A stretch of DNA of 35,582 nt from Micavibrio sp. (GTDB taxonomy: Bacteria; Pseudomonadota; Alphaproteobacteria; UBA9219), in assembly GCA_020718105.1 (NCBI GenBank), contig DYDA01000022.1, forward strand, positions 1-35,582, written 5' to 3'. The translations under genes and the position numbers were made by a program. This document shows positions 1,116-28,794 of the stretch, piece after piece (the stretch's first letter is position 1; each line of letters starts with the position of its first letter). The notes under the pieces were generated by a model. It saw only the letters and a program-made list of their open reading frames with translations, was not told where the DNA came from and searched no databases.

Positions 1116-1436
1116 ATGGTTATGAACGTCTCCAATGTCCTTTCTGCCTATCGTCAAGCCGACGGAGCAAGCCTTGGGATCAAAGATTCTGCCATGATGG
1201 CCCCCGTTGATAAGAAGGGCGATACGTTTTCCGATGCGCTTGGCGATTTTTTGGGCGATGCCGTTCAAGGCATCAAGCACAGCGAAGAAATGGCGGCCAA
1301 GGGCGCTGTTGGCAAGGCTGATTTGCAAGAGGTCATTTTGGCCGTCAGTAACGCGGAAGTGATGATGCAAACGGTGACGTCAATTCGCGATAAAGTTATT
1401 TCCGCCTATCAAGAAGTCATCCGCACCGCGATTTAA
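1116..1436 (+). CDS. fliE: Flagellar hook-basal body complex protein FliE
   Basis: FliE is the small adaptor between the MS ring and the rod and is needed for flagellar type III export. The 106-residue length is typical. The C-terminal conserved region is seen in VGKADLQEVILAVSNAEVMM and the following TSIRDKVISAYQEVIR. A strong ribosome-binding site (TAGGAGG, about 1101-1108) precedes the start; a second ATG two codons later (1122) is also possible. In many alphaproteobacteria fliQ and other export genes follow; here the operon stops and the next gene is on the opposite strand. Confidence 0.93.
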   Translation: MVMNVSNVLSAYRQADGASLGIKDSAMMAPVDKKGDTFSDALGDFLGDAVQGIKHSEEMAAKGAVGKADLQEVILAVSNAEVMMQTVTSIRDKVISAYQEVIRTAI

Positions 1437-1577
1437 TTTTCGATTAAAGACAATAGACCTCTTGGCTAATCTTGGGCTAACAGTAAAAAAATCCTTGTCA
1501 TTCTGGATCAGCGCGCCCCTGTTTTTGCAGAGAGGCGGCGATGGTCGTTAAAATCAAACAGAAGGTGGAAGGGGGCG

Positions 1578-1760
1578 TTATGCTGCGTCAACTTTTTGAG
1601 ATTCAAGGCGCATTATTTCGTCTTTGAGATTGAGTTTATCACGTTTGAGTTGATTGATTTTGCTTATGTCGCCAGCGGCTCTGGATTCTTCGATATGGAG
1701 TTGTTCTTCAATGTCGGTGTGACGTTTTTTAAGGGATTCGATGCGATGCGATAAGGGCAT
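1578..1760 (-). CDS. YdcH / DUF465 family small coiled-coil protein
   Basis: This is a 60-residue, highly charged, helical protein (MPLSHRIESLKKRHTDIEEQ onwards) with the YdcH/DUF465 pattern: an N-terminal HRIESLKKRH helix and a C-terminal KRDKLNLKDEIMRLE helix. The biochemical role of the family is unknown. Eleven further in-frame codons exist upstream, but the ATG at 1760 has a good AAAGGAAA ribosome-binding site and matches the usual family N-terminus. It is transcribed opposite to the flagellar genes and stands alone. Confidence 0.75.
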   Translation of the reverse strand: MPLSHRIESLKKRHTDIEEQLHIEESRAAGDISKINQLKRDKLNLKDEIMRLESQKVDAA

Positions 1761-1959
1761 GGGCGTTTCCTTTTTTTGTAAACATTGGATCAAACGACAT
1801 AACAGCTCATTGTACCTTAATTTAGTAAAAAAAGCATGACCTATTCCGCCCGCTTTAAAAAAAAGACCGCGTGTATGAGGCTTAACGCCTCGTCAAGAGT
1901 TTAGCGAGATAATGCTGCAATCTTCTTTCTTTTCCCCCTTCTTTTTCTGAACTTCTTCC

Positions 1960-2466
1960 ATGAAAAACACGCTTGTCATAATCTTTTTGCTGACGCTTCT
2001 GGCCGCGCCATGCGCTGCTCCTGCCTCTGATCATGGTGGCGGTGGCGGGGGAGGCCATGGGGCAGAGGCTAAAAAGGGGGACGATAGCAAAAAGCCTAAG
2101 AAGAAAGATGATGCCGCCACGATCACGGGTGGGATGACAGAGAATGAACCTGTTTATTTGAATCTTCCCGCTATCACGATGCCTGTCATCAATAAATATG
2201 GGGCGCAGCAGGTCATCTCGATGATTATGAATATCCGTGTTAGTGATAGGGCTGCCGCCGAAGCGATGCAGCTCAATATGCCCAAGTTGAGGGATTCCTT
2301 GTTTCAGGTTCTTTATACGGGATTTTCTGATGGTTCTTTGCGCAACGACAACGCCGTGGACTTGGCAGGCGTGAAAGCTATGGTTATTCAGACGGTTAAT
2401 GCCTTGTATCAGAAAGACTATGCCGTTGATGTTCTCATTCAGGCTATGGCTCAACGGCAGTTATAG
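1960..2466 (+). CDS. Exported FliL-like protein
   Basis: This 168-residue protein has an N-terminal hydrophobic stretch that reads as a cleavable signal peptide (residues 1-23). A Gly/His- and Lys/Asp-rich linker follows to about residue 55. The rest resembles the periplasmic domain of FliL: a 'VYLNLPAITMPV' strand, then a region with 'RAAAEAMQLNMPKLRDSL' and 'VKAMVIQTVNALYQKDYAVD'. FliL associates with the flagellar motor/stator; there it is normally held by an uncleaved transmembrane helix, while here the N-terminus looks like a signal sequence. A few hundred bases separate it from flgBC-fliE. The FliL assignment is by pattern only and moderate in confidence. Confidence 0.55.
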   Translation: MKNTLVIIFLLTLLAAPCAAPASDHGGGGGGGHGAEAKKGDDSKKPKKKDDAATITGGMTENEPVYLNLPAITMPVINKYGAQQVISMIMNIRVSDRAAAEAMQLNMPKLRDSLFQVLYTGFSDGSLRNDNAVDLAGVKAMVIQTVNALYQKDYAVDVLIQAMAQRQL

Positions 2467-2538
2467 TGATTTTTTCATTTCCCCCCTTGCCTTTAAGGGA
2501 GTCTTTGGGCATTCTGCCTCGGCTTTGCCGTGTGCGTT

Positions 2539-2557
2539 AACGCTAAAGCGTTTTTTT
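2539..2557 (+). terminator. Weak intrinsic terminator after the FliL-like gene
   Basis: AACGC, a TAAA loop and GCGTT form a 5-bp hairpin (2539-2552) followed directly by a T run. The short stem makes this a weak candidate. It lies between the FliL-like gene and hppA. Confidence 0.4.
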
Positions 2558-2616
2558 GAGTAAGGAGCCATCGGTTCTCTTGCTCCATCGTCTTCAAAAA
2601 ATGTGAGGAACTGTCC

Positions 2617-4716
2617 ATGAGTACTGAGTTCATGATAATTTTCGCCTGTGGCGTTTTGGCGCTGCTTTACGGATTGGTTACGGCCAGAACTGTTTTGTCG
2701 GCCTCTGCTGGTAATGCGCGGATGCAAGAAATCGCCGCCGCTGTTCAAGAAGGCGCGAAAGCTTACCTGAACCGTCAGTACATGACGATTGCCTTGGTTG
2801 GTATTGTCATCTGCGTTGCGTTAGGCTGGTTTTTAGGCCTGCATGTTGGCATTGGTTTTGTGACGGGCGCTGTTTTGTCAGGCGTTGCCGGTTATATCGG
2901 CATGAACGTATCGGTTCGCGCCAATGTGCGTACGGCTGCTGCCGCTCAGGTAGGGATGAAAGAAGCCTTGGGCATTGCCTTTAAGTCGGGTGCGATTACG
3001 GGCATGTTGGTTGTCGGTCTCGGCCTTCTGGCTGTTGGCGGGTATTATTACGCGCTGGTTCAGTGGAAAGGTCTTGAAGAAGAAAACATTCGCTCCGTCA
3101 TCGAAGCGCTTGTCGCGCTCAGCTTTGGTGCATCGCTGATTTCGATCTTTGCGCGTCTTGGCGGCGGCATCTTTACCAAAGGCGCTGACGTTGGCGCTGA
3201 TTTGGTGGGCAAGGTCGAAGCGGGCATTCCCGAAGATGATCCACGCAACCCTGCCGTGATTGCCGATAACGTTGGCGACAACGTTGGCGATTGCGCCGGT
3301 ATGGCTGCTGATTTATTCGAAACCTATGCCGTGACCATCGTCGCGACCATGCTTCTCGCCGCGACGTTCTTTGTCGGTGATGTGCGTGAGACGATGATGA
3401 TCCTGCCGCTCGTTATCGCGGGTGTTTGTATTGTGGCCTCGGTGATTGGAACGTACTTTGTGCGTTTGAACGCCAAGCAAAACATCATGGGCGCTTTGTA
3501 TAAAGGGCTTGTTGCGACGGGCGTTCTTTCCGCTGGGTTGATCTTTGTCGCGATCAATAAAATGGTTGGCTTCAACGAAGTCGTTGCCAATGTCGATGGC
3601 TCGGTTATTTCTGGAGCGAACCTGTTTTATTGCGCTTTGACAGGTCTGGGCGTCACGGCCTTGATGGTGTGGATCACAGAATACTACACCTCAACGGAAT
3701 ATCGTCCGGTTCGCTCAGTCGCGGCGGCTTCGGCCAACGGTCACGGTACGAACGTGATCCAAGGCCTTGCCATTTCGATGGAGTCCACGGCTCTTCCCGT
3801 TCTGGTGATCTCGGTTGGTATTGTTGTTTCTTATATGTTGAGTGGCCTGTTTGGTATCGCAATTGCGGCAACCACCATGCTGGCCTTGGCCGGTATGATC
3901 GTTGCCATCGATGCCTATGGCCCTGTGACGGACAACGCTGGCGGTATTGCTGAAATGGCCGATATGCCTAAGGAAATCCGCGTGACCACTGATGCTTTGG
4001 ACGCTGTTGGTAATACGACGAAAGCCGTTACCAAGGGCTATGCCATCGCTTCAGCGGGATTGGCTTCGTTGGTTCTGTTTGCCGCGTATATCGAAGACTT
4101 GCGCCACTACTTCCCCGATTTGAAGGTTGAGTTCAACCTTCAAAATCCGTACGTTGTGGTGGGTCTCTTCATCGGTGGCATGTTGCCTTACCTGTTCGGC
4201 GCGATGGCCATGACGGCTGTTGGCCGCGCAGCTGGCGCGGTTGTGCAGGAAGTGCGTCGTCAGTTCCGTGAGATCAAGGGCATTATGGAAGGCAAGGCAA
4301 AGCCAGAATATGGCACTGCCGTTGATATGCTAACCAAGGCTGCGATCCGTGAAATGATCATCCCCTCCTTGCTTCCAATCGCTGCGCCTGTCGTTCTGTA
4401 CGTTATCGTGAACACGGTAGCGGGGCAGACCGAGGCCTTTACGGCACTGGGCGCGATGCTTTTGGGCACGATTGTGACGGGTCTCTTTGTCGCTATCTCG
4501 ATGACATCGGGCGGCGGCGCTTGGGACAATGCCAAGAAGTATATCGAGGAAGGCCATCACGGCGGCAAGGGTTCAGAAGCCCATAAAGCTGCCGTTACGG
4601 GCGACACCGTCGGCGATCCGTACAAGGATGCCGCTGGCCCTGCCATCAACCCGATGATCAAGATCATCAACATCGTGGCGATCCTCTTGCTGGCTATTTT
4701 GGCTCGCATGGCGTAA
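2617..4716 (+). CDS. hppA: Membrane-bound proton-pumping pyrophosphatase, K+-independent type
   Basis: This 699-residue polytopic membrane protein couples hydrolysis of pyrophosphate to H+ transport across the cytoplasmic membrane. Substrate- and Mg-binding motifs are intact: [11 protein letters not shown] (about 190-200), [19 protein letters not shown] (about 213-231), and [16 protein letters not shown] (about 431-446). The sequence [12 protein letters not shown] carries Lys and Thr at the two positions that in this family separate K+-independent enzymes (Lys, Thr) from K+-dependent ones (Ala, Gly). Length and topology are normal. TGAGGAAC (about 2602-2609) is the ribosome-binding site. The gene is monocistronic, closed by a strong terminator. 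Confidence 0.96.
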
Positions 4717-10403: not shown

Positions 10404-11420
10404 TCAGATTTTACCCTGCGTCATGACGGCATGGTTAATGGCTTCATTGACGGTTTCGGGGGGGATGGCCAGCATGGCCTCGCTGCCAAAATCTTGGGCG
10501 CAAATAACCGTTCCTTGGCTCACGCGTGGGGCGAACTTGCGGGCGCTGGTGGGGCCAAAAAGGCTGATAAGGGGGCAATTGACCGCTGCCAGCATATGGC
10601 TTGTCCCGCTATCGTTCACAACGGCTAGATCAAGGCAGTGCCCTAGCGCCAGCGTTTGTTCAACACTGATATCGCGGCCACCCCACACGTCATAGGCTTG
10701 CAAGGGAAAAATGGCCTCAGGAATCGATTTAAAAAGCCTGTCGTATAAGTCCATCTCTTGTGGGCCTAATAAGAAAACGGGCACTCTGTTCATGCGAACT
10801 TGTAATTTGGCGACTTTTTCAAAGTTTTCTAGCGGCCATTTTTTGATGGTGTTTCCTGCGCCCGGTGCGAAGCCGATGTAAATCTGTCCCTCTGGTAAAA
10901 TGCGTCGTGCCTTGGTGAGAAGGGGCGTCGAGACGGGTAGGCGAGCCGTCACGGCTGGAACAAAGCCAGCCGCAAGCTCAATCGTTTGCAACAGTTGCGC
11001 GATAAGAGAGGAGGGCGTGGGGGCCAACAAAGGGGGGCGCCTGTCCGAAAAAAGATAGCGCATGGCGGGCGCGATAAAAAGCTTGTGTGGCAGGCGAAGT
11101 CTTGCGGTTAGCACAGGCTTCCACCGTCCGCGTGTATCGATCACAAGATCAAACGGAGGTGGAATTGTGTTGTTTTCATCACCGCCTATCAGCCAAGAGG
11201 GCTGGACATGGATTTCATTCAGAAAGGGTGCTGCCGTCTCGCGCAAGGCTGAGGCATAAACGGTATCGCCTTGAGCGGTCACCCAATGGAGGGTGGCTTG
11301 CGGCCAAGCGGCGCGTAAAGCGCGGACAAAAGGCAGTTTAATAAGGCCATCGCCAATAACCTCGCGGCCAGACAGGATGGCGATATGCTCGGCAGGAAAA
11401 AAGGGGAAGGGAGGCGTCAT
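10404..11420 (-). CDS. Glycosyltransferase family 9 (heptosyltransferase-like)
   Basis: This 338-residue protein has an N-terminal Rossmann half with GDGLIKLPFVRAL and a C-terminal half with the GT9 nucleotide-sugar motifs: GFAPGAGNTIKKWPLENF (about residues 200-217), VVNDSGTSHMLAAVNCPLIS and LFGPTSARKFAPR. Family members add heptose or similar sugars to lipopolysaccharide core or other glycans on the cytoplasmic face of the inner membrane. The donor and acceptor are unknown here. ATG 11420 is chosen; an in-frame TTG two codons earlier also exists. The gene is divergent from grpE, with only 98 bp between starts, and no other LPS-core genes are adjacent. Confidence 0.9.
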   Translation of the reverse strand: MTPPFPFFPAEHIAILSGREVIGDGLIKLPFVRALRAAWPQATLHWVTAQGDTVYASALRETAAPFLNEIHVQPSWLIGGDENNTIPPPFDLVIDTRGRWKPVLTARLRLPHKLFIAPAMRYLFSDRRPPLLAPTPSSLIAQLLQTIELAAGFVPAVTARLPVSTPLLTKARRILPEGQIYIGFAPGAGNTIKKWPLENFEKVAKLQVRMNRVPVFLLGPQEMDLYDRLFKSIPEAIFPLQAYDVWGGRDISVEQTLALGHCLDLAVVNDSGTSHMLAAVNCPLISLFGPTSARKFAPRVSQGTVICAQDFGSEAMLAIPPETVNEAINHAVMTQGKI

Positions 11421-11434
11421 TGTCAAAAAAGGGG

Positions 11435-11464
11435 CTTGAATCGGTTGGCAAAAGAACCCAGATA
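11435..11464 (+). promoter_or_regulatory. Possible sigma32 (heat-shock) promoter for grpE
   Basis: CTTGAA (11435-11440), a 16-bp spacer and CCCAGATA (11457-11464) resemble the sigma32 consensus CTTGAA-N13-17-CCCCATnT. It is 55 bp before the grpE ATG, and grpE is a classical heat-shock gene. Confidence 0.5.
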
Positions 11465-11518
11465 GGGCATGAAGGACTCTATCATTACACCTTACAGGTA
11501 AAGAAACAGGAAACGCCC

Positions 11519-12094
11519 ATGAGCCAAGATCAAAACGAAGCCCCCCAGCAAGCCGTCCGTGACCTTGAGGAAGCTGAAACCTCTGTGGATGCGGCTGAAG
11601 ATGCCTTGGGTATGGCGCAAGATGAAATAGGCAAGCTTAAAGATCAGATTCTTCGCGCGATGGCTGAGACTGAAAATACGCGCCGCCGCATGAAAAAGGA
11701 AAACGATGACGCGCAAAAGTTTGCTGTCGCAAGCTTTGCCAAGGAAATGTTGGTTGTTGCCGACAATTTCCGCCGCGCTTTGGACGCTGTGCCTAAGGAC
11801 GATGCGCAAAACGATACCTTTAGAAATCTGGTGATGGGCGTGGAGGCGACCGAGCGTCAGCTTCTCTCGGCGTTTGAGCGTTTTGGGATTAAAAAGGTTG
11901 AGCCGACAGGTCAGCCTTTTGATCCTCACTATCATCAAGTGATGATGGAGCAGGACGACCCCAGCGTTCCCGCCGGAACGATCCTGACGGTTCTGCAAGC
12001 GGGTTATATGATCCATGATCGGCTTTTGCGTGAGGCGATGGTTGTGGTCGCCAAAGGCGGCCCCGCCGCGCATAAGGTAGATACCAACGCATAG
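11519..12094 (+). CDS. grpE: Nucleotide exchange factor GrpE
   Basis: GrpE is the cytosolic co-chaperone that releases ADP from DnaK. The 191-residue protein has an acidic N-terminus, a long coiled coil (about residues 15-70: EDALGMAQDEIGKLKDQILR onwards) and the beta domain with the C-terminal signature GYMIHDRLLREAMVVVAKG. ATG 11519 is chosen over the open frame back to 11420 because CAGGAAA lies just upstream and the family N-terminus fits. dnaK/dnaJ are not in the window. A possible sigma32 promoter precedes it and a weak terminator follows. Confidence 0.96.
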   Translation: MSQDQNEAPQQAVRDLEEAETSVDAAEDALGMAQDEIGKLKDQILRAMAETENTRRRMKKENDDAQKFAVASFAKEMLVVADNFRRALDAVPKDDAQNDTFRNLVMGVEATERQLLSAFERFGIKKVEPTGQPFDPHYHQVMMEQDDPSVPAGTILTVLQAGYMIHDRLLREAMVVVAKGGPAAHKVDTNA

Positions 12095-12109
12095 GGTTGA
12101 CCCTCGCTT

Positions 12110-12135
12110 AAAAGAGGCTTTTTCTCTCTTTTTAT
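12110..12135 (+). terminator. Weak intrinsic terminator after grpE
   Basis: AAAAGAG (12110-12116) pairs with CTCTTTT (12126-12132) and runs into T's. The stem is A+T-rich, so efficiency is doubtful. Confidence 0.4.
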
Positions 12136-12240
12136 ACCTTTTTTGCATAATTTCGCTTGAAGTTGCGCTTGGGGGCAGCCACACTGCGCCGCGCATCATA
12201 AAATGATGTGCTCGCTCATTACAAAAGATGAAGGACTTTT

Positions 12241-12807
12241 ATGAAAGTTGATGCCAACACCGTCCGCAAGGGCCACGTTCTGGAACACAACAACAAACTG
12301 TGGGTTGTGATCAAAAGTGAAATTATGATCCCCGGAAAGGGGAACGCGATCGTTCAGATCGATATGAAAGATGTCCGCACGGGCATCAAGACGAATGAGC
12401 GTTTTCGCACGCAAGAGTCGGTTGAGCGTGTCCAGCTTTCGGATCACGAAATGCAATTTCTGTTCGTCAGCGATGGCGATTATACCTTTATGGATCAGGA
12501 ATCGTTTGAGCAATATGTCGTGCAGGCCGACATCATCGGCGATGCGGCGGTGTATTTGCAAGACGGCATGGTTTGCAACGTGCAAACCTATGAGGGATCG
12601 CCTCTTTCGGTGGAACTGCCCGCGCAGGTGACACTGGAGATTGTTGAGGCCGATCCCGTCGTGAAGGGGCAGACCGCCTCGTCATCGTACAAGCCCGCCA
12701 AGCTTTCGAACGGTGTGCGTATTCTGGTGCCTCCGTTTATCGAGGCTGGAACGCGTGTCGTTGTGGCTACCGCCGACAACAGCTATGTTGAGCGCGCGAA
12801 GGACTAA
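12241..12807 (+). CDS. efp: Elongation factor P
   Basis: EF-P binds ribosomes stalled on polyproline stretches and promotes peptide-bond formation. The 188-residue protein shows the three beta-barrel domains. Loop residues PGKGNA place Lys33 at the tip position that is modified (beta-lysylated) in enterobacteria. The central NDGE-like segment (SDGDYTFMDQESFEQ) and the C-terminal signature (GTRVVVATADNSYVERAKD) are intact. An AAGGAC(TTTT) site precedes the ATG. No modification enzymes (EpmA/EpmB, EarP) lie in this window, so the modification state is unknown. A strong terminator follows. Confidence 0.96.
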   Translation: MKVDANTVRKGHVLEHNNKLWVVIKSEIMIPGKGNAIVQIDMKDVRTGIKTNERFRTQESVERVQLSDHEMQFLFVSDGDYTFMDQESFEQYVVQADIIGDAAVYLQDGMVCNVQTYEGSPLSVELPAQVTLEIVEADPVVKGQTASSSYKPAKLSNGVRILVPPFIEAGTRVVVATADNSYVERAKD

Positions 12808-12835
12808 AAACGGATTTGAATAGGATTTAAGAAAA

Positions 12836-12885
12836 GGGCGTTCAAGGAAGGGCGAGTAAGCCACTTTCCTTGAACGCTCTTTTTT
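12836..12885 (+). terminator. Rho-independent terminator of efp
   Basis: GGGCGTTCAAGGAA (12836-12849) pairs with TTCCTTGAACGCTC (12865-12878) with one G-T pair, around a 15-base loop. A T run follows. It lies just after the efp stop. Confidence 0.9.
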
Positions 12886-13027
12886 ATGCTTCGTCTCTTT
12901 GCTTTATTGTCGAATTATAGCTTTTGGGGCTTTTTTTAAGCGAGCCGCCACCCAAAATTATGACGTTCTTAATAAGATTGGGGTAGCCTAAATAGGATGG
13001 GGTTCTTACTTTTTTCAGGAGATGACC

Positions 13028-13444
13028 ATGAAATATTCTCTTTCACTTTCTTTGTTGGCGCTTTTGCTTCTTGCCTGCTGGGGCGCAGGAGATTCTCAAG
13101 CGGGCGTTCTTTTTCCTCCATACGGAACCGTAGGGGCTGCTAAGACCTGTCCCACTGGGAAGACTTTTTTGAGGTGGACAGGGGATACGGTTGAGTGCGG
13201 TAAAGTGAACGATGAGGTTACGGTCGCTTCTTGTGGCAGTGGGCAGATGCTTGTGGGGATCACAAACGGGGCGGCGAATTGTATCCCTATTCCAAAACCA
13301 ACGCTTGGCCCCGTTCAAACCTTTCATTTTGGTGATCAAGGGTGGTCCTTGTTGAACTGCCCCAATGGTTATGTGATGACGGGGGCTGGCGGTTGGGCGA
13401 ATACGGGAACGAATATTTATATGAACTGTAGGAAGCTTCAATAA
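13028..13444 (+). CDS. Small secreted cysteine-containing protein
   Basis: This 138-residue protein is of unknown function. The N-terminus is a clear export signal. It contains a possible lipobox (LLLAC, Cys17) and also a signal-peptidase-I-like site near SQA (about residue 25), so it could be a lipoprotein or a free periplasmic/secreted protein. The mature part has six cysteines spaced as paired Cys-Pro/Gly-x-Gly motifs (TCPTGK, VECGK, SCGSGQ, ANCIP, NCPNGY, MNCRK), which suggests disulfides. ATG 13028 is chosen because AGGAG is six bases upstream; an ATG two codons earlier would abut that site. It is monocistronic, with a shared terminator downstream. Confidence 0.75.
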   Translation: MKYSLSLSLLALLLLACWGAGDSQAGVLFPPYGTVGAAKTCPTGKTFLRWTGDTVECGKVNDEVTVASCGSGQMLVGITNGAANCIPIPKPTLGPVQTFHFGDQGWSLLNCPNGYVMTGAGGWANTGTNIYMNCRKLQ

Positions 13445-13460
13445 AAGAGCAACCTAAAAG

Positions 13461-13494
13461 AAAAAAGCGCGGTGCAAAAACACCGCGCTTTTTT
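13461..13494. terminator. Bidirectional terminator between convergent genes
   Basis: AAAAAAGCGCGGTG and CACCGCGCTTTTTT pair perfectly around a CAAAAA loop. The A run on one side and the T run on the other allow it to end both the secreted-protein gene (plus) and the phasin gene (minus). Confidence 0.93.
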
Positions 13495-13533
13495 ATGACT
13501 TGCAAAGTCTAGAGAGGAAAACGCCCGAAAGGG

Positions 13534-14046
13534 TTATTTCTTCATCATGCCCTTAATGTTATCGATCCCTTCACAAACGGCGCTGCTGACCGTTTGCATG
13601 GTTTCAACATGGCTTTGTGAGAGAAGCTCTGACAGCTCCTTAAGGCTGGAGACGCACCCTTCAATCGTCGTTTTTGTGGCCTCAACTTGCTTGGCCACTT
13701 TTTCTTCGGCGGTTGGGGCGGCCATCACGGCTTGCATAAGACCCGATGTGGCCTCCATGCTTTGACGCGCCAGATCGGATTGGCGACGCATATACGCCTG
13801 CATATTTTCAAAGGCCTTCTGGTTGTTGGTCGCGATGGCCTCAAGGCCTTTGCGTTGAGCGGCCATCATGGATTCGATATCCATGTTGGGGAGTTTGCAC
13901 TCGCTCATCGTTTTGCTGAAATCAGAAAATTTGGACATATCCATCATCTTTGACATATCGGCCATTTTGGAAGTGTCCATCATTTTAGACATATCCATAA
14001 ATTTCGAAAAATCGACATCAAAGAAAGGGTTTGTTGGGTTTGACAT
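13534..14046 (-). CDS. Phasin family protein with an N-terminal hexapeptide repeat
   Basis: This 170-residue protein has a phasin-type helical body (about residues 55-165). It includes KGLEAIATNNQKAFENMQAY, RRQSDLARQSMEATSGLMQA and a C-terminal helix. Phasins coat polyhydroxyalkanoate granules or act as amphipathic scaffold proteins; no PHA synthase is in the window. Residues 12-47 are six tandem copies of a six-residue unit close to D-M-S-K-M-M, which is unusual. ATG 14046 is used because GAGGGA lies upstream and the N-terminus fits; five further codons upstream are open. It is monocistronic, ended by the bidirectional terminator. Confidence 0.85.
   Translation of the reverse strand: MSNPTNPFFDVDFSKFMDMSKMMDTSKMADMSKMMDMSKFSDFSKTMSECKLPNMDIESMMAAQRKGLEAIATNNQKAFENMQAYMRRQSDLARQSMEATSGLMQAVMAAPTAEEKVAKQVEATKTTIEGCVSSLKELSELLSQSHVETMQTVSSAVCEGIDNIKGMMKK
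13906..14013 (-). repeat. 18-bp tandem repeat encoding D-x-S-K-x-x hexads
   Basis: Six in-frame 18-bp units encode DFSKFM, DMSKMM, DTSKMA, DMSKMM, DMSKFS and DFSKTM. They lie inside the phasin gene, and the DNA units have diverged. Confidence 0.8.
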
Positions 14047-21477: not shown

Positions 21478-22143
21478 ATGCAGTCTACAAACCACGACAG
21501 CCTTATACAAGAAATTGATGACGATCTCGCCCGCAAGCAGATGGAAGCTTTGTGGAAGAAATATGCGCCCTTCGTGATTGGCGGCGCGTTGGCGATTATT
21601 GCGGCGACGGCGGGCATAACGGGCTGGAAAAATTATACAACGCAGACCGAGCAAAAGGCGACGCAAGCGTTGGTTGAGATTGTGGATAAGGACTATAAGA
21701 CGCCAGAGGAAAAAATTGCGGCTTTTGAATCGTTTGCTAAGGATTCCTCTAAGAAGCCTTTAGCTGTTTTTGCAAAGTTTGAAGCGGCTTCTGTGGCTTT
21801 GGAGCAAAACAAGCGCGAGCAGGCTATCGCCCTTTATGATGGCCTTGCTGCCGATACGGCTGCCCAGCCTCTTTATCGTGACCTTGCGGCTCTTTTTTCT
21901 GTGCAGGCGCAGTTGGATTCTGGCGATCCCGCCGCTCTTGAGGCGCGTTTGGCTCCGCTCATGAAGATGGGTAATCCTTGGCGTTTTTCGGCTTATGAGT
22001 TTGCGGCTTATCTGGCTCTTCGCGTGGGCGATAAGGAAAAGGCGGGAAAGCTATTTGCCGAGCTTAAGGCGATGCCAGATGCGCCAGCTTCGTTGGCGAT
22101 GCGGGCAAGTGATGTTTTGCAGTGGCTGAGTGAGGGGAAATAA
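21478..22143 (+). CDS. YfgM-like tetratricopeptide membrane protein
   Basis: This 221-residue protein has a cytosolic N-terminus (SLIQEIDDDLARKQMEALWK), one membrane helix (YAPFVIGGALAIIAATAGITGW, about 30-51) and a periplasmic TPR-like helical domain. This is the layout of YfgM, an ancillary subunit of the Sec translocon that works with periplasmic chaperones. ATG 21478 has CAGG six bases ahead; an in-frame TTG at 21460 is less likely. The bamB-like gene begins 4 bp after its stop, the same yfgM-bamB order seen in many proteobacteria. Confidence 0.85.
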   Translation: MQSTNHDSLIQEIDDDLARKQMEALWKKYAPFVIGGALAIIAATAGITGWKNYTTQTEQKATQALVEIVDKDYKTPEEKIAAFESFAKDSSKKPLAVFAKFEAASVALEQNKREQAIALYDGLAADTAAQPLYRDLAALFSVQAQLDSGDPAALEARLAPLMKMGNPWRFSAYEFAAYLALRVGDKEKAGKLFAELKAMPDAPASLAMRASDVLQWLSEGK

Positions 22144-22147
22144 AAGG

Positions 22148-23494
22148 ATGAAACGATCCATGCGGTCTTTCCTGTCTTATCCATTCTTGATGCTGCTTGT
22201 TTTTTCTTTGGTCGCTTGCGGATCGGATAAAGCAGAGAAGGAAGAAGCTATCGCGTCTTCCAGCTCGGGTAAGCGCATCGCTGTTTTGGAAGAGGCTCAA
22301 AAACAGCTGACGGGGCAGATTCCTGATTTTCGCGTTGAGGTTCCTGCGCCAGCGTTGAATGCGGATTGGGCACAAAACGGTGGTAATGCTCAGCACGCTA
22401 TGGGGGCTTTGGCTTTGGCCTCATCCTCTCCTGTCAAGAAATGGTCGGCGAGTATTGGTTCTGGCTCCAGCGGTGATTACAAGCTTTTATCGACACCTGT
22501 TGTGAGTGGCAAAACGCTTTATGCGATGGATTCAAAGGGTCGCATAAGCGCTTATGATACAACGGATGGTGATCGCCTTTGGCGGGTGGATACGGCGTTG
22601 CCTGATCGCGATGGCGAAGCCATGGGCGGCGGTCTTGCCTTTGAAGGCGGCGTTGTTTATGGAACCACGGGTTTTGGAGAGGTTGTGGCGCTTCGCGCAA
22701 CGGATGGCGCGGTTATTTGGCGGCGCGTTTTGGGAAAACCCATTCGCTCGGCGCCGACGATTGCGGATAAACGCCTTTTTGTGATCGATATTGAAAATGA
22801 AACTTTCATGTTGGACACCAAAACCAGCCTTGTTCTTTGGGCTCATAAGGGCATTGCGGAAAGCGCGACTTTAATGGGCTCGTCCAGCCCTGCGGTGAAG
22901 GGTGATACGGTCGTTGTGGCGTATAGCTCTGGTGAGGTTTTTGGCCTAAGGGCACAAAACGGTCGTGTGGTTTGGGGGGAGGTTTTGGCCGTTCCGACAA
23001 AAATTGGGGCGTTGCCTGCGATTGCCGATATTCGCGGCTTACCCGCCATGGATAAGGGCGGCGTCTATTCCATCAGTCACAGTGGTCGCATGGCGGCGAT
23101 TGATGAGCGGCGCGGGAATCGTTGGTGGGAGTCCGATATCGGCGGTGTCAACACGCCTTATCTTGCGGGCGATGTCGTTTATGTTGTGACGAATGATAGT
23201 GAGCTGCTTGCTGTATCGCGCCAAGATGGTCGCATTATATGGGTGACGCCTCTTCAAAAATTGAAAAAGCCATCGGATCGGGATTCGAAGCCTGTCTCAT
23301 GGTGGGGGCCTGTGCTGGCGGGGGGGCGCTTGTGGCTCACCAATTCCTTGGGCTCTTTGGCCTCTTTTGCACCAGAAACGGGCAAGGCTTTGCAGGCTAT
23401 TGATTTGGACGATCCCTTTTTCCTTCCCCCCATCGTTGCGGGGCAAACCCTTTATGTCCTGACGGATAAGGGTGAGCTTATTGCATTGCGGTGA
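22148..23494 (+). CDS. bamB: BamB-like outer-membrane assembly lipoprotein (PQQ-type beta propeller)
   Basis: This 448-residue protein has a signal peptide ending in a lipobox (FSLVAC, lipidated Cys24) and then PQQ-like propeller blades. Examples are KTLYAMDSKGRISAYDTTDG, GVVYGTTGFGEVVALRATDG, AVIWRRVLG and LWLTNSLGSLASFAPETG. BamB is the lipoprotein of the BAM complex that supports insertion of outer-membrane beta barrels. ATG 22148 is preferred; GTG 22130 and ATG 22160 are alternatives. It follows the YfgM-like gene by 4 bp. In many proteobacteria der (engA) comes next; here a giant repeat protein takes that place. Confidence 0.9.
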   Translation: MKRSMRSFLSYPFLMLLVFSLVACGSDKAEKEEAIASSSSGKRIAVLEEAQKQLTGQIPDFRVEVPAPALNADWAQNGGNAQHAMGALALASSSPVKKWSASIGSGSSGDYKLLSTPVVSGKTLYAMDSKGRISAYDTTDGDRLWRVDTALPDRDGEAMGGGLAFEGGVVYGTTGFGEVVALRATDGAVIWRRVLGKPIRSAPTIADKRLFVIDIENETFMLDTKTSLVLWAHKGIAESATLMGSSSPAVKGDTVVVAYSSGEVFGLRAQNGRVVWGEVLAVPTKIGALPAIADIRGLPAMDKGGVYSISHSGRMAAIDERRGNRWWESDIGGVNTPYLAGDVVYVVTNDSELLAVSRQDGRIIWVTPLQKLKKPSDRDSKPVSWWGPVLAGGRLWLTNSLGSLASFAPETGKALQAIDLDDPFFLPPIVAGQTLYVLTDKGELIALR

Positions 23495-23753: not shown

Positions 23754-26700
23754 ATGTCTTTATCTATTCGCTTCTCATCTTGCTTGACGGCCTTGGGTTT
23801 GACGCTTGCGTTGGCGGCGGTTTTCCCTATGGGCGCAAGTGCGCAAATGCCAGCCGCATCGGTTGAAACTTATATCGATCAAGCTGTGCCAGATACAACG
23901 GGACAAGGGGTTATGCCTGATGGCGTGATCTGGAACCAGCCGCTTAAAGCGGGCGACATGGTTTTGCCAAGAAAAAGCGCAACAAAAGTAAAACCAAAAA
24001 CGACAGCCGTTCCGGCTGTGCCTTCTGCTTTGAATGATCTTAAAGCGCCTAAACTTCCTGCTGCAACGGTCAAGAAAGCGGCTCCGCCTCAAATCAAAAC
24101 GGATAAAAACAGCACGGCAAGCCTCATGCTTTTGCAGGGGATGAAAACGGCGTTACAAAAAGCCGGACAGAATGCCGAGATTCCAAAATCGGATTTAGAA
24201 CCTATCGATCCGGCCTCTGTTAAAATCGATGACAGCATGGTGGCTTTGCCTGAAGCGATGGAAGCTTCTGGGGAAAAGACGCCTTCTATGGCGATCTCTC
24301 TTCCCTCTAAGAAGGAAGGGTTTGTCGCTGGGCAAGAGCCTAAGGGATGGGTTTCTCCTGACAAGGCCGCTCTTCATGATGCCGAAGGGAAGGCTGCCTC
24401 TAAGACGGATGATGGGATGATGGATATTGTCTTCCCGCCCGAAATGACGAAGAGCGCCGCGCCATCCGCCGTTGCGGCCAGTGATCGTGTGCCAACGACG
24501 TTTGGTGCTGATGCTGGTGCTGCCGGTGCTGTTGCGGGGGATGAATCGCCCAAAGCGACTGAGATGGCTGAATCACCCTTACTGTTAGAACAATCGGCGG
24601 CCAAGCCTGCCGAGGATAAGAGCCTTTTTGATCGTATGGCTGAGCCGTTCACCAGCATTTTTGGTGAGCCGGTGGAGCAAAAGGAAGCGAAGAAGAAAGC
24701 GGCCACGACGGATCGGGATTCTTTGGATTCGGATGAGACTGATATAGGGAATGAGAAAAAAGAGACAGGCAAAGGCGAGAAGGTCAACGCTTCAGCATCC
24801 GATCTTTCGCTTCCTCCTATAGAGGACGAGGCCAAAGCTTGTCAGCCCAGTGTAACAAAGTGGACGCGTGAGTGTGCCGATGCCGGTTATCCGGCACACT
24901 TTGTCGGAAAAATTGTTGGAGAAACGCGGGTCGTTTGTCCGTTGGGGGATGCTCGTGACGTGTGGCTTAGCAATAATTGCGCTGCGCCGCTTGCTTCCTC
25001 ACCTTTAGCGGTATCGGCTTCGTCGTCCGTTGTCGTCTCGCCTGTCGCAACGGCCATGGCGCAAGAGCCTTCCAGTGCCGCATCGGTTATTGTGCCTGCG
25101 GCTATGGAAGCATCCATTATCGATGCCTCATGCGGCGTGGCCAATGGCCTTGCAGCGGATGGCAAACCCGCTGGCGATTTGTGCGCGCAAGGGATGGCGA
25201 CTCCCGTTTTAGGCGATGGTCCTTGGCGGTGGAGTTGTAAGGGGCTTGGCGGCGGCGTGACGGTGAGTTGCGCGGCGCCTGTTGCGGCGGGGGCAACGCC
25301 TAAAAAGACGGAAGCGAAGGATGCAGCGGCTAAGGCGAGCGAGGCATCCATCATTGACGGTCAGTGCGGCGAAGCCGCAGGCGTGGGCGCCCAAACAGCG
25401 CCACTCTCTGCTTTGTGTAAGCAAGGCCAACCTAGCCGTGTGAATGGCGCTGGTCCTTGGACATGGGCGTGCAGCGGCTCTAACGGTGGCATTGCGGCTT
25501 CTTGTAACGCGCCGCGCAAGGCGGATGGCGTTTGCGGCGTGGCTCATGACGTTGGGACGGACAGCTTGCCGATGCGCGATCTTTGTACGGCGGGCTATGC
25601 CAGTGCCGTGACGGGACAGGGACCTTGGAATTGGACATGCTCCGGTCTTTACGGCGGCGGCGCGGCAACGTGTCATGCGCCCTTGAAGAATAACGGCATT
25701 TGTGGCGCGGCCTCTATGCGTGGCCATCGTGATGCGCCGACGGGGGATCTTTGCAACGCTGGTGTGGCCAGCTCTGTAGCAGGGACGGGGCCTTGGACAT
25801 GGTCGTGTGAGGGCGGTAACGGCGGGGCGAGTGTCAGCTGTCGCGCTTCGACTTTGATTGATGGCGCTTGTGGGCCTGCCCATGGCAGCGCCTATGCCAA
25901 AACGCCGATGGAAGGGCTTTGTTCATCGGGGCATGCTACGCGCGTGACGGGATTGGGGCCGTTTAATTGGTCTTGCTCTGGCGATAATGGCGGTGCAACG
26001 GTAAGCTGCACGGCTTCGCTTGGGACACAGGAAGAGGTTGAGTCCGTGATTTCTTGCGGCGAAGCGGTTGAGACTTTGGCGCTTGGCAAGCCCAGCGATA
26101 AACTCTGCGCTTCCGGTCAGGCCAGCGCTGTAGAAGGTGATGGGCCTTGGACATGGCGTTGTTCTGACGATGCGGGGCATAGCGCTTCGTGTTCGACGCT
26201 TAGCGCAAGCGCGGGCGCGTGTGGCAAGGCCGCCGGTGTGCCTGTTTCCAACGAGCCAAAGACCAAGCTTTGTGAGGCGGGAACGCCCAGCGACGTTCGT
26301 ATGCATGCCAAGACGGAATGGCAATGGGATTGTGCGGGAACGATGGGCGCTAGTGCCGTTTCTTGCTCTGCGCCAATAGCGGCGGCAGAGGCTAAAAAGG
26401 AAACGTTGGCTGCGCTTAAAAATGACAAGGCAGTTGCGGCTGCTCCTGCGCCAGAAGCGGTTTGCGGCAATGCTGATGGGAAAAACCTAACCGAGAAACC
26501 CGATGACGATCTTTGTGCGACGGGCAAGGCCAGCGCTGTGCGTGGCTCTGGTCCGTGGAGTTGGACGTGCGGGCAAAAGGCCAAGGTGAATTGTGAAGCG
26601 CAAAAGACCGTGAACGGCGCATGCGGTGTGACCAATGGATCTGTTCAAAAAGAAGCGCCCTTTTCGGGGCTTTGCGTGACGGGAACGGCGACGCCTGTAA

Positions 26701-28007
26701 GCGGCTCTGGTCCATGGCTGTGGAGCTGCATCGGATCGGGCAGCGGATCAAGCGCGAGTTGCTCGGCCTCTTCGCAAGCACAGACCAAGGTTGATGGCTT
26801 GTGTGGCGCGGCGGCCAATGCCGTCATGAATCAAGCCCCTGTTTCCGGTTTATGCGACAGCGGTATGCCCAGTTCCGTTTACGGAGCAGGGCCGTGGACG
26901 TGGACGTGTTCAGGGATGAATGGCGGTATCGCCAGCACGTGCGGGACGTCTAAGATTCTGCCCAAAGCGCCTCCTCCTCCGGGGCCGCTGGTGAATGGTT
27001 TGTGCGGCTCCGCCAACGGTGTGGCCTCACTTGTCGCACCGGAAGAAGATATGTGTTCGGCGGGCATGGCAACGGCGCTGAGCGGCAATGGCCCTTGGAA
27101 TTGGAGCTGTATTGGCGCAAATGGCGGCATGACGGTCAGTTGTACCGCGCCGTTGACGCCGCCGGATCCTATCGTTGGCATGTGCGGCGCGGCACATGGC
27201 GTTAGCACGTTGACGGCCCCTAAGGGCGGCTTATGCGCGGCGGGCATTGTCAGCGCCGTGAGCGGTAAGGGGCCATGGACATGGAGTTGTTCGGGAACGA
27301 ATGGTGGTGGCGCGGTAAGCTGCGTTGCGCCTCTTGCGGGTAAGGGCTCATCGACGCAGGCTTTGCCATCGATGGTCACACCTTCTTCCAGCGGTGATGA
27401 AGCGCCAACGCCAAGAGCCGCGCCTGTCGGTCTTGTGACGCCGCAACTGTCTTCAAAAGCGGTCTTGCCAGCGCTTAAGCCGGGAACGCTCCCCTCGTTT
27501 AAGACGTCAAGTAAAACTGTAAAAGACGCCTCGCAGGGAAATCAAGAAACGCCTTCCTTTGCGCCGTCTTTGCCAGAGGGAACAACGGCCATCACGCCGC
27601 CACCTGTGCGTGATGCTTTGTTGCCGATGGCTGGGCTGAAACCTCCCGTGATTGACAGCGAAGGCAAAACCGTTCCCGGAACGCGCCTTGTGCTAGAACC
27701 CGAAGCGTCCTTGATCAGTTTTGAGAGAGGGTCGGATAAGTTGGATAAAGATGCTGTTGAGGTCGTTGAAAAACTTATTCGCATTTTAAAGGCAAATGGC
27801 GGGGCGCGGATCACGCTGACGGCTTATTCCGATACCAATGGCACGATCACGCCGCGTGAAGCGCGTCGCCTCTCCCTTAATCGCGCTTTGGCTATTCGCG
27901 ATTTTATGACGACCAAAGGCATTGCCAGCAGCCGCGTGGATGTTCGCCCCATGGGCGCGAACGTGCCTTCGGGCGATATGGATCGCGTGGATGTGAAGGT
28001 CAATTAA
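23754..28007 (+). CDS. Giant secreted Cys-repeat protein with OmpA-like peptidoglycan-binding C-terminus
   Basis: This is a 1417-residue protein. Residues 1-30 are a signal peptide (cleavage after GASA). Residues 31-360 are Pro/Ala/Lys-rich and low in complexity. A four-Cys unit follows (KWTRECADAGYPAHFVGK region, about 362-410). About residues 452-1195 hold some twelve repeats of 50-70 residues with the plan CG-x-A-x-G ... LC-x-x-G-x-(A/P)S-x-V-x-G-x-GPW-x-W-x-C-x-G-x-NGG-x-x-x-SC. Each repeat usually has four cysteines. The C-terminus (about 1312-1417) is OmpA-like, with SDTNG and LSLNRALAIRDFM carrying the Asp and Arg used to bind diaminopimelate in peptidoglycan. It probably acts in the periplasm or at the outer surface. 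Function is unknown. A TTG at 23736 is an alternative start. It follows bamB by about 260 bp. Confidence 0.88.
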   Translation: MSLSIRFSSCLTALGLTLALAAVFPMGASAQMPAASVETYIDQAVPDTTGQGVMPDGVIWNQPLKAGDMVLPRKSATKVKPKTTAVPAVPSALNDLKAPKLPAATVKKAAPPQIKTDKNSTASLMLLQGMKTALQKAGQNAEIPKSDLEPIDPASVKIDDSMVALPEAMEASGEKTPSMAISLPSKKEGFVAGQEPKGWVSPDKAALHDAEGKAASKTDDGMMDIVFPPEMTKSAAPSAVAASDRVPTTFGADAGAAGAVAGDESPKATEMAESPLLLEQSAAKPAEDKSLFDRMAEPFTSIFGEPVEQKEAKKKAATTDRDSLDSDETDIGNEKKETGKGEKVNASASDLSLPPIEDEAKACQPSVTKWTRECADAGYPAHFVGKIVGETRVVCPLGDARDVWLSNNCAAPLASSPLAVSASSSVVVSPVATAMAQEPSSAASVIVPAAMEASIIDASCGVANGLAADGKPAGDLCAQGMATPVLGDGPWRWSCKGLGGGVTVSCAAPVAAGATPKKTEAKDAAAKASEASIIDGQCGEAAGVGAQTAPLSALCKQGQPSRVNGAGPWTWACSGSNGGIAASCNAPRKADGVCGVAHDVGTDSLPMRDLCTAGYASAVTGQGPWNWTCSGLYGGGAATCHAPLKNNGICGAASMRGHRDAPTGDLCNAGVASSVAGTGPWTWSCEGGNGGASVSCRASTLIDGACGPAHGSAYAKTPMEGLCSSGHATRVTGLGPFNWSCSGDNGGATVSCTASLGTQEEVESVISCGEAVETLALGKPSDKLCASGQASAVEGDGPWTWRCSDDAGHSASCSTLSASAGACGKAAGVPVSNEPKTKLCEAGTPSDVRMHAKTEWQWDCAGTMGASAVSCSAPIAAAEAKKETLAALKNDKAVAAAPAPEAVCGNADGKNLTEKPDDDLCATGKASAVRGSGPWSWTCGQKAKVNCEAQKTVNGACGVTNGSVQKEAPFSGLCVTGTATPVSGSGPWLWSCIGSGSGSSASCSASSQAQTKVDGLCGAAANAVMNQAPVSGLCDSGMPSSVYGAGPWTWTCSGMNGGIASTCGTSKILPKAPPPPGPLVNGLCGSANGVASLVAPEEDMCSAGMATALSGNGPWNWSCIGANGGMTVSCTAPLTPPDPIVGMCGAAHGVSTLTAPKGGLCAAGIVSAVSGKGPWTWSCSGTNGGGAVSCVAPLAGKGSSTQALPSMVTPSSSGDEAPTPRAAPVGLVTPQLSSKAVLPALKPGTLPSFKTSSKTVKDASQGNQETPSFAPSLPEGTTAITPPPVRDALLPMAGLKPPVIDSEGKTVPGTRLVLEPEASLISFERGSDKLDKDAVEVVEKLIRILKANGGARITLTAYSDTNGTITPREARRLSLNRALAIRDFMTTKGIASSRVDVRPMGANVPSGDMDRVDVKVN
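25107..27340 (+). repeat. About twelve tandem Cys-rich coding repeats
   Basis: Tandem units of about 160-250 bp each encode one CG...LC...GPWTWSC...SC module. The seventh has a divergent middle (KTEWQWDC in place of GPW), and the eighth is shortened. DNA identity between units is moderate, so they are not recent copies. Linkers of Lys/Ala- and Pro-rich sequence separate some of them. Confidence 0.85.
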
Positions 28008-28268: not shown

Positions 28269-28299
28269 GGGCAGGGGGCAAGGCGTGGGGTCAGTGGGG
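28269..28299 (+). other. G-run tract after repeat copy 2
   Basis: Runs of G lie at 28269-28271, 28274-28278, 28287-28290 and 28296-28299, with loops of 2, 8 and 5 bases. This is near the G-quadruplex pattern but one loop exceeds seven. It overlaps the stop of the minus-strand gene at 28291. Confidence 0.4.
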
Positions 28300-28686
28300 C
28301 GTGCGGCGCTCGCAATAGATCGTTGTGGCCGTTATCACGGCAATGAGCGCGATGAGCGCCCCGATCAGCGCCAACGAAAATCCTAAAAGAACAAAAGCCG
28401 CTGCGATGGCCACCGTTGTGACAAGTTCAATCATCACATAACGCGCCCCGATGGGGGCGGCGCAATGGCGGCAGCGGCCACGTCCGATCAGCCATGAAAA
28501 AACGGGGATAAGATCGCGAGGCGTTAAGCGCGTGCCGCACGAAGGGCAAGTTGACGGCGGCGCGATGATCGACATTTTGCGTGGCAAGCGATAGCTGAGC
28601 ATAGTTGTAAAGCTGCCCAGCACCAGCCCGATAAGCGTGCCAACAAAAAGTCTGACAAAGGGTTCGTTCAGCAAAGGATCGTTCAT
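28291..28686 (-). CDS. Orphan prepilin-peptidase N-terminal (methyltransferase-type) domain protein
   Basis: This 131-residue membrane protein has a first helix with the A24-family N-terminal pattern (VRLFVGTLIGLVLGSFTTML) and an R-x-P-R turn. A cytosolic zinc-type loop with two CxxC pairs (CPSCGTRLTPRDLIPVFSWL and GRCRHCAAPIGARY) follows, and then two or three hydrophobic segments. This is the N-terminal domain of PilD-like prepilin peptidases, which in bifunctional enzymes is linked to N-methylation of processed pilins. The C-terminal aspartyl-peptidase domain with its GxGD motif is absent, and the protein ends after ERRTPH. ATG 28686 is chosen for the family start. Confidence 0.78.
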   Translation of the reverse strand: MNDPLLNEPFVRLFVGTLIGLVLGSFTTMLSYRLPRKMSIIAPPSTCPSCGTRLTPRDLIPVFSWLIGRGRCRHCAAPIGARYVMIELVTTVAIAAAFVLLGFSLALIGALIALIAVITATTIYCERRTPH

Positions 28687-28794
28687 AGTGCGCTTATACC
28701 CTTTCTTGAGTCTGATGGCCATGCTTTCCTTGAAAGGAACATGGGTTTGTGACTATGATCCTTATCTTTGCACTCTTGTAAAGCAGAGATGATC

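Follow-up and report, generated by a model that had tools for sequence, protein, structure and literature searches.

A conserved OmpA-domain protein of Micavibrionales with an array of twelve four-cysteine modules, a candidate wall-held periplasmic spacer

An OmpA-type C-terminal domain normally keeps the protein that bears it in the periplasm. The DAP-binding pair of such a domain is Asp271/Arg286 in A. baumannii OmpA (PMC12108004). M. aeruginosavorus ARL-13, which possesses type I and type II secretion, feeds while attached to its prey, and the paper on its genome makes no mention of OmpA (PMC3189940). We found no paper on the cysteine-rich module described below or on an OmpA bead-string in Micavibrio. 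To our knowledge no envelope scaffold has been characterised in the Micavibrionales. The gene analysed here lies at positions 23754–28007 on the forward strand of a 35,582-nucleotide stretch of Micavibrio sp. DNA (contig DYDA01000022.1 of assembly GCA_020718105.1; the window, to which all positions refer). The genomes that share it form a Micavibrionales-like order; the NCBI taxonomy still places Micavibrio under Bdellovibrionota. The product is a well-conserved, unusually built OmpA-domain protein, and its module is uncatalogued but widespread.

The open reading frame runs from an ATG at 23754 to a stop codon at 28005–28007 and encodes 1417 residues, comprising a signal peptide, a disordered N-region, a four-Cys unit (the N-unit), twelve four-Cys modules, a Pro/Ser/Thr-rich linker and an OmpA-type domain, all encoded on the forward strand. 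The signal peptide (23754–23843) is of the Sec type without a lipobox; its hydrophobic peak covers residues 7–28 and cleavage is probable after residue 30, between ASA and Q. An Ala-, Lys-, Pro- and Ser-rich region of about 320 residues then leads up to the N-unit. The 53 cysteines are distributed as C10 in the signal peptide, C363, C374, C395 and C409 in the N-unit and 48 in the modules, which makes exactly twelve four-Cys modules. An earlier reading of this DNA, made from sequence alone, had described a 1417-residue protein with a long disordered N-terminus, a four-Cys unit and about twelve Cys-paired modules, and the open reading frame and cysteine count bear this out; its words 'giant' and 'secreted' are justified insofar as the protein is long and carries a Sec-type signal peptide, and surface exposure is unsupported.

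Measured from first to fourth Cys, modules 1 to 6 lie at 25131–25271, 25365–25505, 25533–25673, 25701–25841, 25869–26009 and 26055–26192, and modules 7 to 12 at 26220–26366, 26463–26594, 26622–26762, 26802–26942, 27003–27143 and 27183–27323; the first cysteines are residues 460, 538, 594, 650, 706, 768, 823, 904, 957, 1017, 1084 and 1144. A strict form of the module pattern occurs 11 times in the protein as against a maximum of 1 (mean 0.0006) in 10,000 shuffles. The two most divergent copies are module 7, which reads KTEWQWDC, and module 8, in which the C3–C4 loop is shortened. Conserved features are CG..., a Pro, LC..G, GPWxWxC and a final Cys (mean column identity 52%). All four cysteines are retained in 471 of 473 complete modules, a figure to be read with the fact that the profile used to select modules itself favours Cys; such near-invariance is expected if the cysteines are paired. 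An attempt to derive the pairing from co-loss of cysteines gave no signal, as Cys is missing from just two of these 473 modules.

No family was matched when the module was compared with Pfam, NCBIfam, PHROG and PDB sequences; the window modules have no Pfam or NCBIfam family over cut-off, and 38 module triplets gave scattered family matches at chance level only. The statement of the sequence-only reading that the module has no assigned function is thus unaltered by profile searches of named families. A structure for three adjacent modules had also been proposed there as a check, and AlphaFold predicted a stable, all-beta fold for modules 2–4 in tandem (38 alignment rows) with a mean pLDDT of 96.2 and a pTM of 0.74. 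Foldseek comparison of the module model with the PDB gave nothing below E 0.05 (best E 0.055), and VIA comparison gave a best Z of 3.8 with neighbours that were mostly Ig-like strings (NCAM2, IgLON, SiiE, GhpA, titin). These weak neighbours are strings of Ig-like, cadherin or adhesin domains and include fragments of SiiE, SraP and GhpA; a viral structure library added a chitobiase-C-domain protein of Caudovirales at E 2e-4 and, at E 0.03, an Ig-like protein of a phage. The module is therefore described here as a predicted small all-beta bead with weak Ig-like resemblance. That no PDB match stands out for the module or N-unit models is absence of evidence and no proof of a new fold.

The sole annotated part of the protein is its OmpA-type domain (27720–27968), which belongs to a divergent alphaproteobacterial clade by alignment and tree and matches PF00691 over residues 1323–1405 with 42.6 bits against a curated cut-off of 27.2. 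The NCBIfam equivalogs of this type (YiaD, Pal and others) scored far below their cut-offs (Pal_lipo 20.8 bits against 125.35). In the stretch AYSDTNG...LSLNRAL an Asp and an Arg stand at the positions aligned with the DAP-binding pair, with a spacing that is two residues longer. The Arg (SLxRAL) is kept in orthologues; the Asp is replaced in many of them (AYADNA, AYAGTN, AYAAPP, AYASMG), so that wall binding is not assured. Peptidoglycan binding by the window domain is likely, but it is not a proven property of the family. An 'intact' OmpA peptidoglycan-binding domain, as the domain had been called, is consistent with the Pfam match and with the presence of both residues in this protein, but the Asp is not conserved in the clade and the anchor is only probable.

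The N-unit (24840–24980, residues 363–409) is an order-restricted domain recognised by profile searches and predicted as three beta strands (pLDDT 82, core above 90). It is weakly G5-like in VIA comparison (Z 4.0 to the G5 domain of IgA1 protease, Z 3.1 to that of HP0197), and there was no Foldseek match under E 1 and no Pfam match. Its derivation from the module by divergence was rejected (hhalign probability 0.3%). The low-complexity region that precedes it contains two conserved short motifs seen in the N-terminal alignment: VIWNQPLKAGDMVLP (23925–23969), which recurs in family f1 orthologues, and the helix-like STASLMLLQGMKTALQKAGQN (24111–24173), a candidate docking peptide; the recurring motifs of the disordered region read PLkAGdltL and LQGMKxALQ. 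A strict STASLMLLQGMKTALQKAGQN pattern was found in 10 of 26 orthologues as against 0.025 expected from shuffles, and recurrence of two short motifs in such a region is what is expected of docking peptides.

As the sequence-only reading had stated, the gene lies directly downstream of bamB (22130–23494), but this position is incidental because, of the relatives read, only the nearest (G005) retains it, and an operon link with bamB was rejected since the adjacency does not extend beyond this closest relative. Ancestrally the gene neighboured efp (EF-P) and suhB (inositol monophosphatase), and it follows these two in ten Micavibrionales loci. In the window the gene has been relocated next to bamB and is no longer beside efp–suhB; efp (12241–12807, forward strand), the former neighbour in the ancestral efp–suhB–OmpA order as judged by synteny, is now 11 kb away. 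Because this position has not been kept, orthology of the window gene rests on the tree and on the relatives. Among class-level relatives the efp–suhB–OmpA order occurs in L057 and L058 and suhB–OmpA in L059 and L060, where the OmpA proteins have about 290–350 residues and neither N-unit nor modules. A maximum-likelihood tree of OmpA domains places these short proteins and the Micavibrionales giants together in a clade of 20 rows with 100/99 support that leaves out the other OmpA proteins of the genome. Synteny and tree together point, on the simplest reading, to a short alphaproteobacterial OmpA protein (~300–350 residues) to which the N-unit and a growing bead array were added within the Micavibrionales. 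Two further open reading frames of the window were noted: a small secreted, Cys-containing one of 140 residues (13022–13444, forward strand) between efp and a phasin-like open reading frame, and one of 143 residues (28291–28722, reverse strand) whose product covers a prepilin peptidase no further than its N-terminal part (PF06750, 105.6 bits). A relative of the latter is found next to the orthologue in G005 and in G004 as well. A phage or plasmid origin of the protein was considered and rejected, there being no tblastn match in phage or plasmid collections; one IMG/VR contig has a single module.

Of the 39 genomes in the sample of relatives, some of them class-level, 34 gave a whole-protein match somewhere. 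The N-unit is present in 28/33 genomes of the order (20/21 of those of high quality) as against 0/333 other sampled members of the class, and the module in 30/33 (21/21 of high quality) as against 1/286 other sampled Alphaproteobacteria. The full architecture was seen only in Micavibrionales, mostly as a single-copy gene with 1–12 modules, and in the genome of the window all twelve modules are confined to the one protein. The N-unit likewise occurs nearly always once per genome, with extra weak matches in other proteins of three family f2 genomes (G023, G027, G029). Large exoproteins of family f2 (L161:2165-6226; L163:8077-12237 and 1341-3668; L164:2744-6913 and 11279-13600) carry long CPSGQxGxI...R.CPSG...V.SNTC arrays, a repeat with distant similarity to the N-unit profile, and several of these proteins end in Gly/Asp tails. 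An N-terminal domain with a motif of approximately C[RF]Y[VI]DN....FVPF.T..EW.AF is shared by exoproteins carrying either of the Cys repeats (L052, L061, L062, L063, L064, L066, L161–L165).

The window protein and five relatives have 12 modules, three orthologues have 11 and most members of genus g3 have 8; the remainder have 7–9, down to 1, the counts for L044 and L045 being lower bounds as these are cut by contig ends. The N-unit lies ahead of most or all modules in families f1 and f3 and after them, adjoining the OmpA domain, in f2, from which the N-unit and OmpA domain emerge as the most constant parts and the array as variable. Among 12-module proteins modules of the same number pair up almost without exception (39–100% identity), whereas modules within one protein are 33–57% identical; positional identity across genera together with low identity within the protein indicates that the array is old and was inherited as a unit rather than recently amplified. 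The same two observations led us to reject gene conversion or a hypervariable array, and the differences in repeat number, whose comparison across strains had been suggested, do not look like length variation at strain level. Module 12 is the most conserved, with 70–100% identity in f1 genera other than g3 and 61–65% in g3, where modules around positions 2–5 and 7 have apparently been lost. No clear positional match to the window modules was found in the f2 and f3 arrays. In comparison with G005, dN/dS is 0.04 for the N-unit and OmpA domain, 0.08 for the modules and about 0.15 for the disordered and linker regions, and we read the modules as being under purifying selection and the array as old and stable. 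Neutral or near-neutral elaboration, in which the function lies with the ancestral short OmpA protein and the modules are no more than tolerated filler, would accommodate the range of 1 to 12 modules and the class-level relatives that do without them, but it is hard to reconcile with the module dN/dS, with near-invariant cysteines and positional orthology over genera, or with the presence of the module in every high-quality genome of the order, and we regard it as very improbable.

The module itself extends well beyond the order. One collection scan gave 575 pattern matches, 215 of which were confirmed, including some in Geobacteraceae/Desulfuromonadales, Nitrospirae, Patescibacteria, Beta- and Gammaproteobacteria and Myxococcales, and some of the exported proteins concerned have Ig-like, InlB-B-repeat, CBM96 or beta-propeller domains. 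The module is not peculiar to the window protein and occurs in exported proteins of many phyla; what is surprising is the order-wide conservation of a stable, ancient array and not an unprecedented module. In G007 (64 module matches) modules are fused to long proteins (L054:4569-8639 and L055:4834-8043) that combine the N-terminal membrane segment GFGVTPVLYLLALIGIA with glycine-rich repeats recalling tail-fibre or pilin-like proteins. Patescibacteria (Magasanikbacteria and others; L074, L077, L081, L100 and L105) have the module in large exported proteins, some of them partly masked; they are another group known for life attached to other cells. Modules also occur singly in unrelated proteins that are exported, and CBM96 or other sugar-associated domains accompany some of them; this raises the question of whether the modules are a ligand-binding array (for glycan or metal) that the wall anchor merely concentrates, length and stiffness being by-products. 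The strongly conserved aromatic GPWxWxC stretch of each module and the separate conservation of each module position would fit such a function, but no known binding family was matched and the conserved Trp may simply pack against disulfides in the core, so that we consider it improbable.

We tentatively favour, at a little short of an even chance, a periplasmic scaffold in which a short OmpA protein has been lengthened by the N-unit and bead array into a stiff spacer held at the wall. The protein would be exported by Sec, as its signal peptide suggests, and its cysteines would be oxidized in the periplasm by DsbA, which the genome encodes. The C-terminal OmpA domain would then grip peptidoglycan, the array of disulfide-stiffened Ig-like beads would serve as stiff spacer or scaffold, and the N-unit with the short conserved peptides of the disordered N-region would dock a candidate partner. 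A fixed-length ruler is not essential to this scaffold, since some orthologues go down to one module. The scan of the protein found neither lipobox nor barrel, nor a further strong hydrophobic stretch, and no part of T1SS or autotransporter type. With no part in the sequence that would cross the outer membrane, a periplasmic location is the default and is favoured over a surface adhesin. Of the 'rigid surface or periplasmic spacer tethered to the wall' put forward in the sequence-only reading, the stiff spacer is a reasonable interpretation, and the features absent from that scan leave surface exposure unsupported.

There is nonetheless something to recommend a reading in which the C-domain rests on the wall while the array passes, or is secreted, across the outer membrane and touches other cells or surfaces, such as the prey of epibiotic predators. 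Strings of Ig-like beads are a typical feature of long adhesins, fragments of SiiE, SraP and GhpA being among the weak fold matches. The other proteins that bear the module, whether from the order or from further phyla, are likewise exported, and some of them have carbohydrate-binding, putative Ig or beta-propeller domains. Twelve extended beads might, by our own estimate made without coordinates, span more than the distance from wall to outer membrane, and the protein may thus exceed the periplasm; outer-membrane secretins exist, with four secretin matches in the genome, and ARL-13 combines attached feeding with type I and type II secretion (PMC3189940). Against this stand the retention that an OmpA C-domain normally brings and the absence of barrel, lipobox, T1SS-type or autotransporter parts. 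The positional identity and purifying selection of the modules give no hint of the fast variation often seen in surface adhesins, and the gene is order-wide when predation has been shown for few members. On balance we think a surface or junction adhesin unlikely. A broader view, that this is an order-defining wall-anchored bead-string reaching from peptidoglycan towards or through the outer membrane as part of the envelope architecture or cell–cell contact of Micavibrionales, epibiotic predators included, we hold to be possible but rather doubtful.

The gene offers a near-universal, mostly single-copy marker and a candidate envelope component for an order that includes epibiotic predators. The module has no Pfam or NCBIfam entry despite its very-high-confidence predicted fold and its presence in several phyla including Patescibacteria, Nitrospirae and Desulfuromonadales. 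We know of no function for the short efp–suhB-linked OmpA protein; the module-free short homologues of other Alphaproteobacteria allow a before-and-after comparison of what the array contributes.

Compared with known systems, the window protein has in common with OmpA-family proteins (PF00691; Pal, OmpA and YiaD/YfiB-type) a C-terminal PF00691 domain above cut-off, export and the SLxRAL Arg, and differs from them in having neither barrel nor lipobox, in its own alphaproteobacterial clade, in the bead array and in an Asp that is not conserved across orthologues. More particularly, its signal peptide, unlike that of Pal, has no lipobox, and in place of the 8-stranded barrel of the OmpA porin, for which no Pfam barrel domain was found, it has a low-complexity N-region rich in Ala, Lys and Pro. 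The short alphaproteobacterial OmpA protein (L057, L058 and L060; L059 with suhB only) shares its OmpA subclade (100/99) and the same neighbourhood or part of it. The 'CPSGQxGxI..R.CPSG..SNTC' repeats of other exoproteins of the order include copies matched by the N-unit profile (E about 1e-5 to 1e-7), but form long arrays with another N-terminal domain, whereas the N-unit here is single and far more conserved. GPWxWSC proteins outside the order have the same module by profile (in the listed loci 51–72% identical to the query module), mostly in 1–7 copies (up to 13) and with other domains or none recognised; in the loci read outside the order the N-unit and the OmpA clade of the window protein are absent. 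Lastly, Ig-like bead-string proteins (titin, cadherins, SiiE, GhpA) resemble the window protein in having small beta domains in tandem, but there is no sequence similarity, and the beads of the window protein are about half the usual size with two potential disulfides each.
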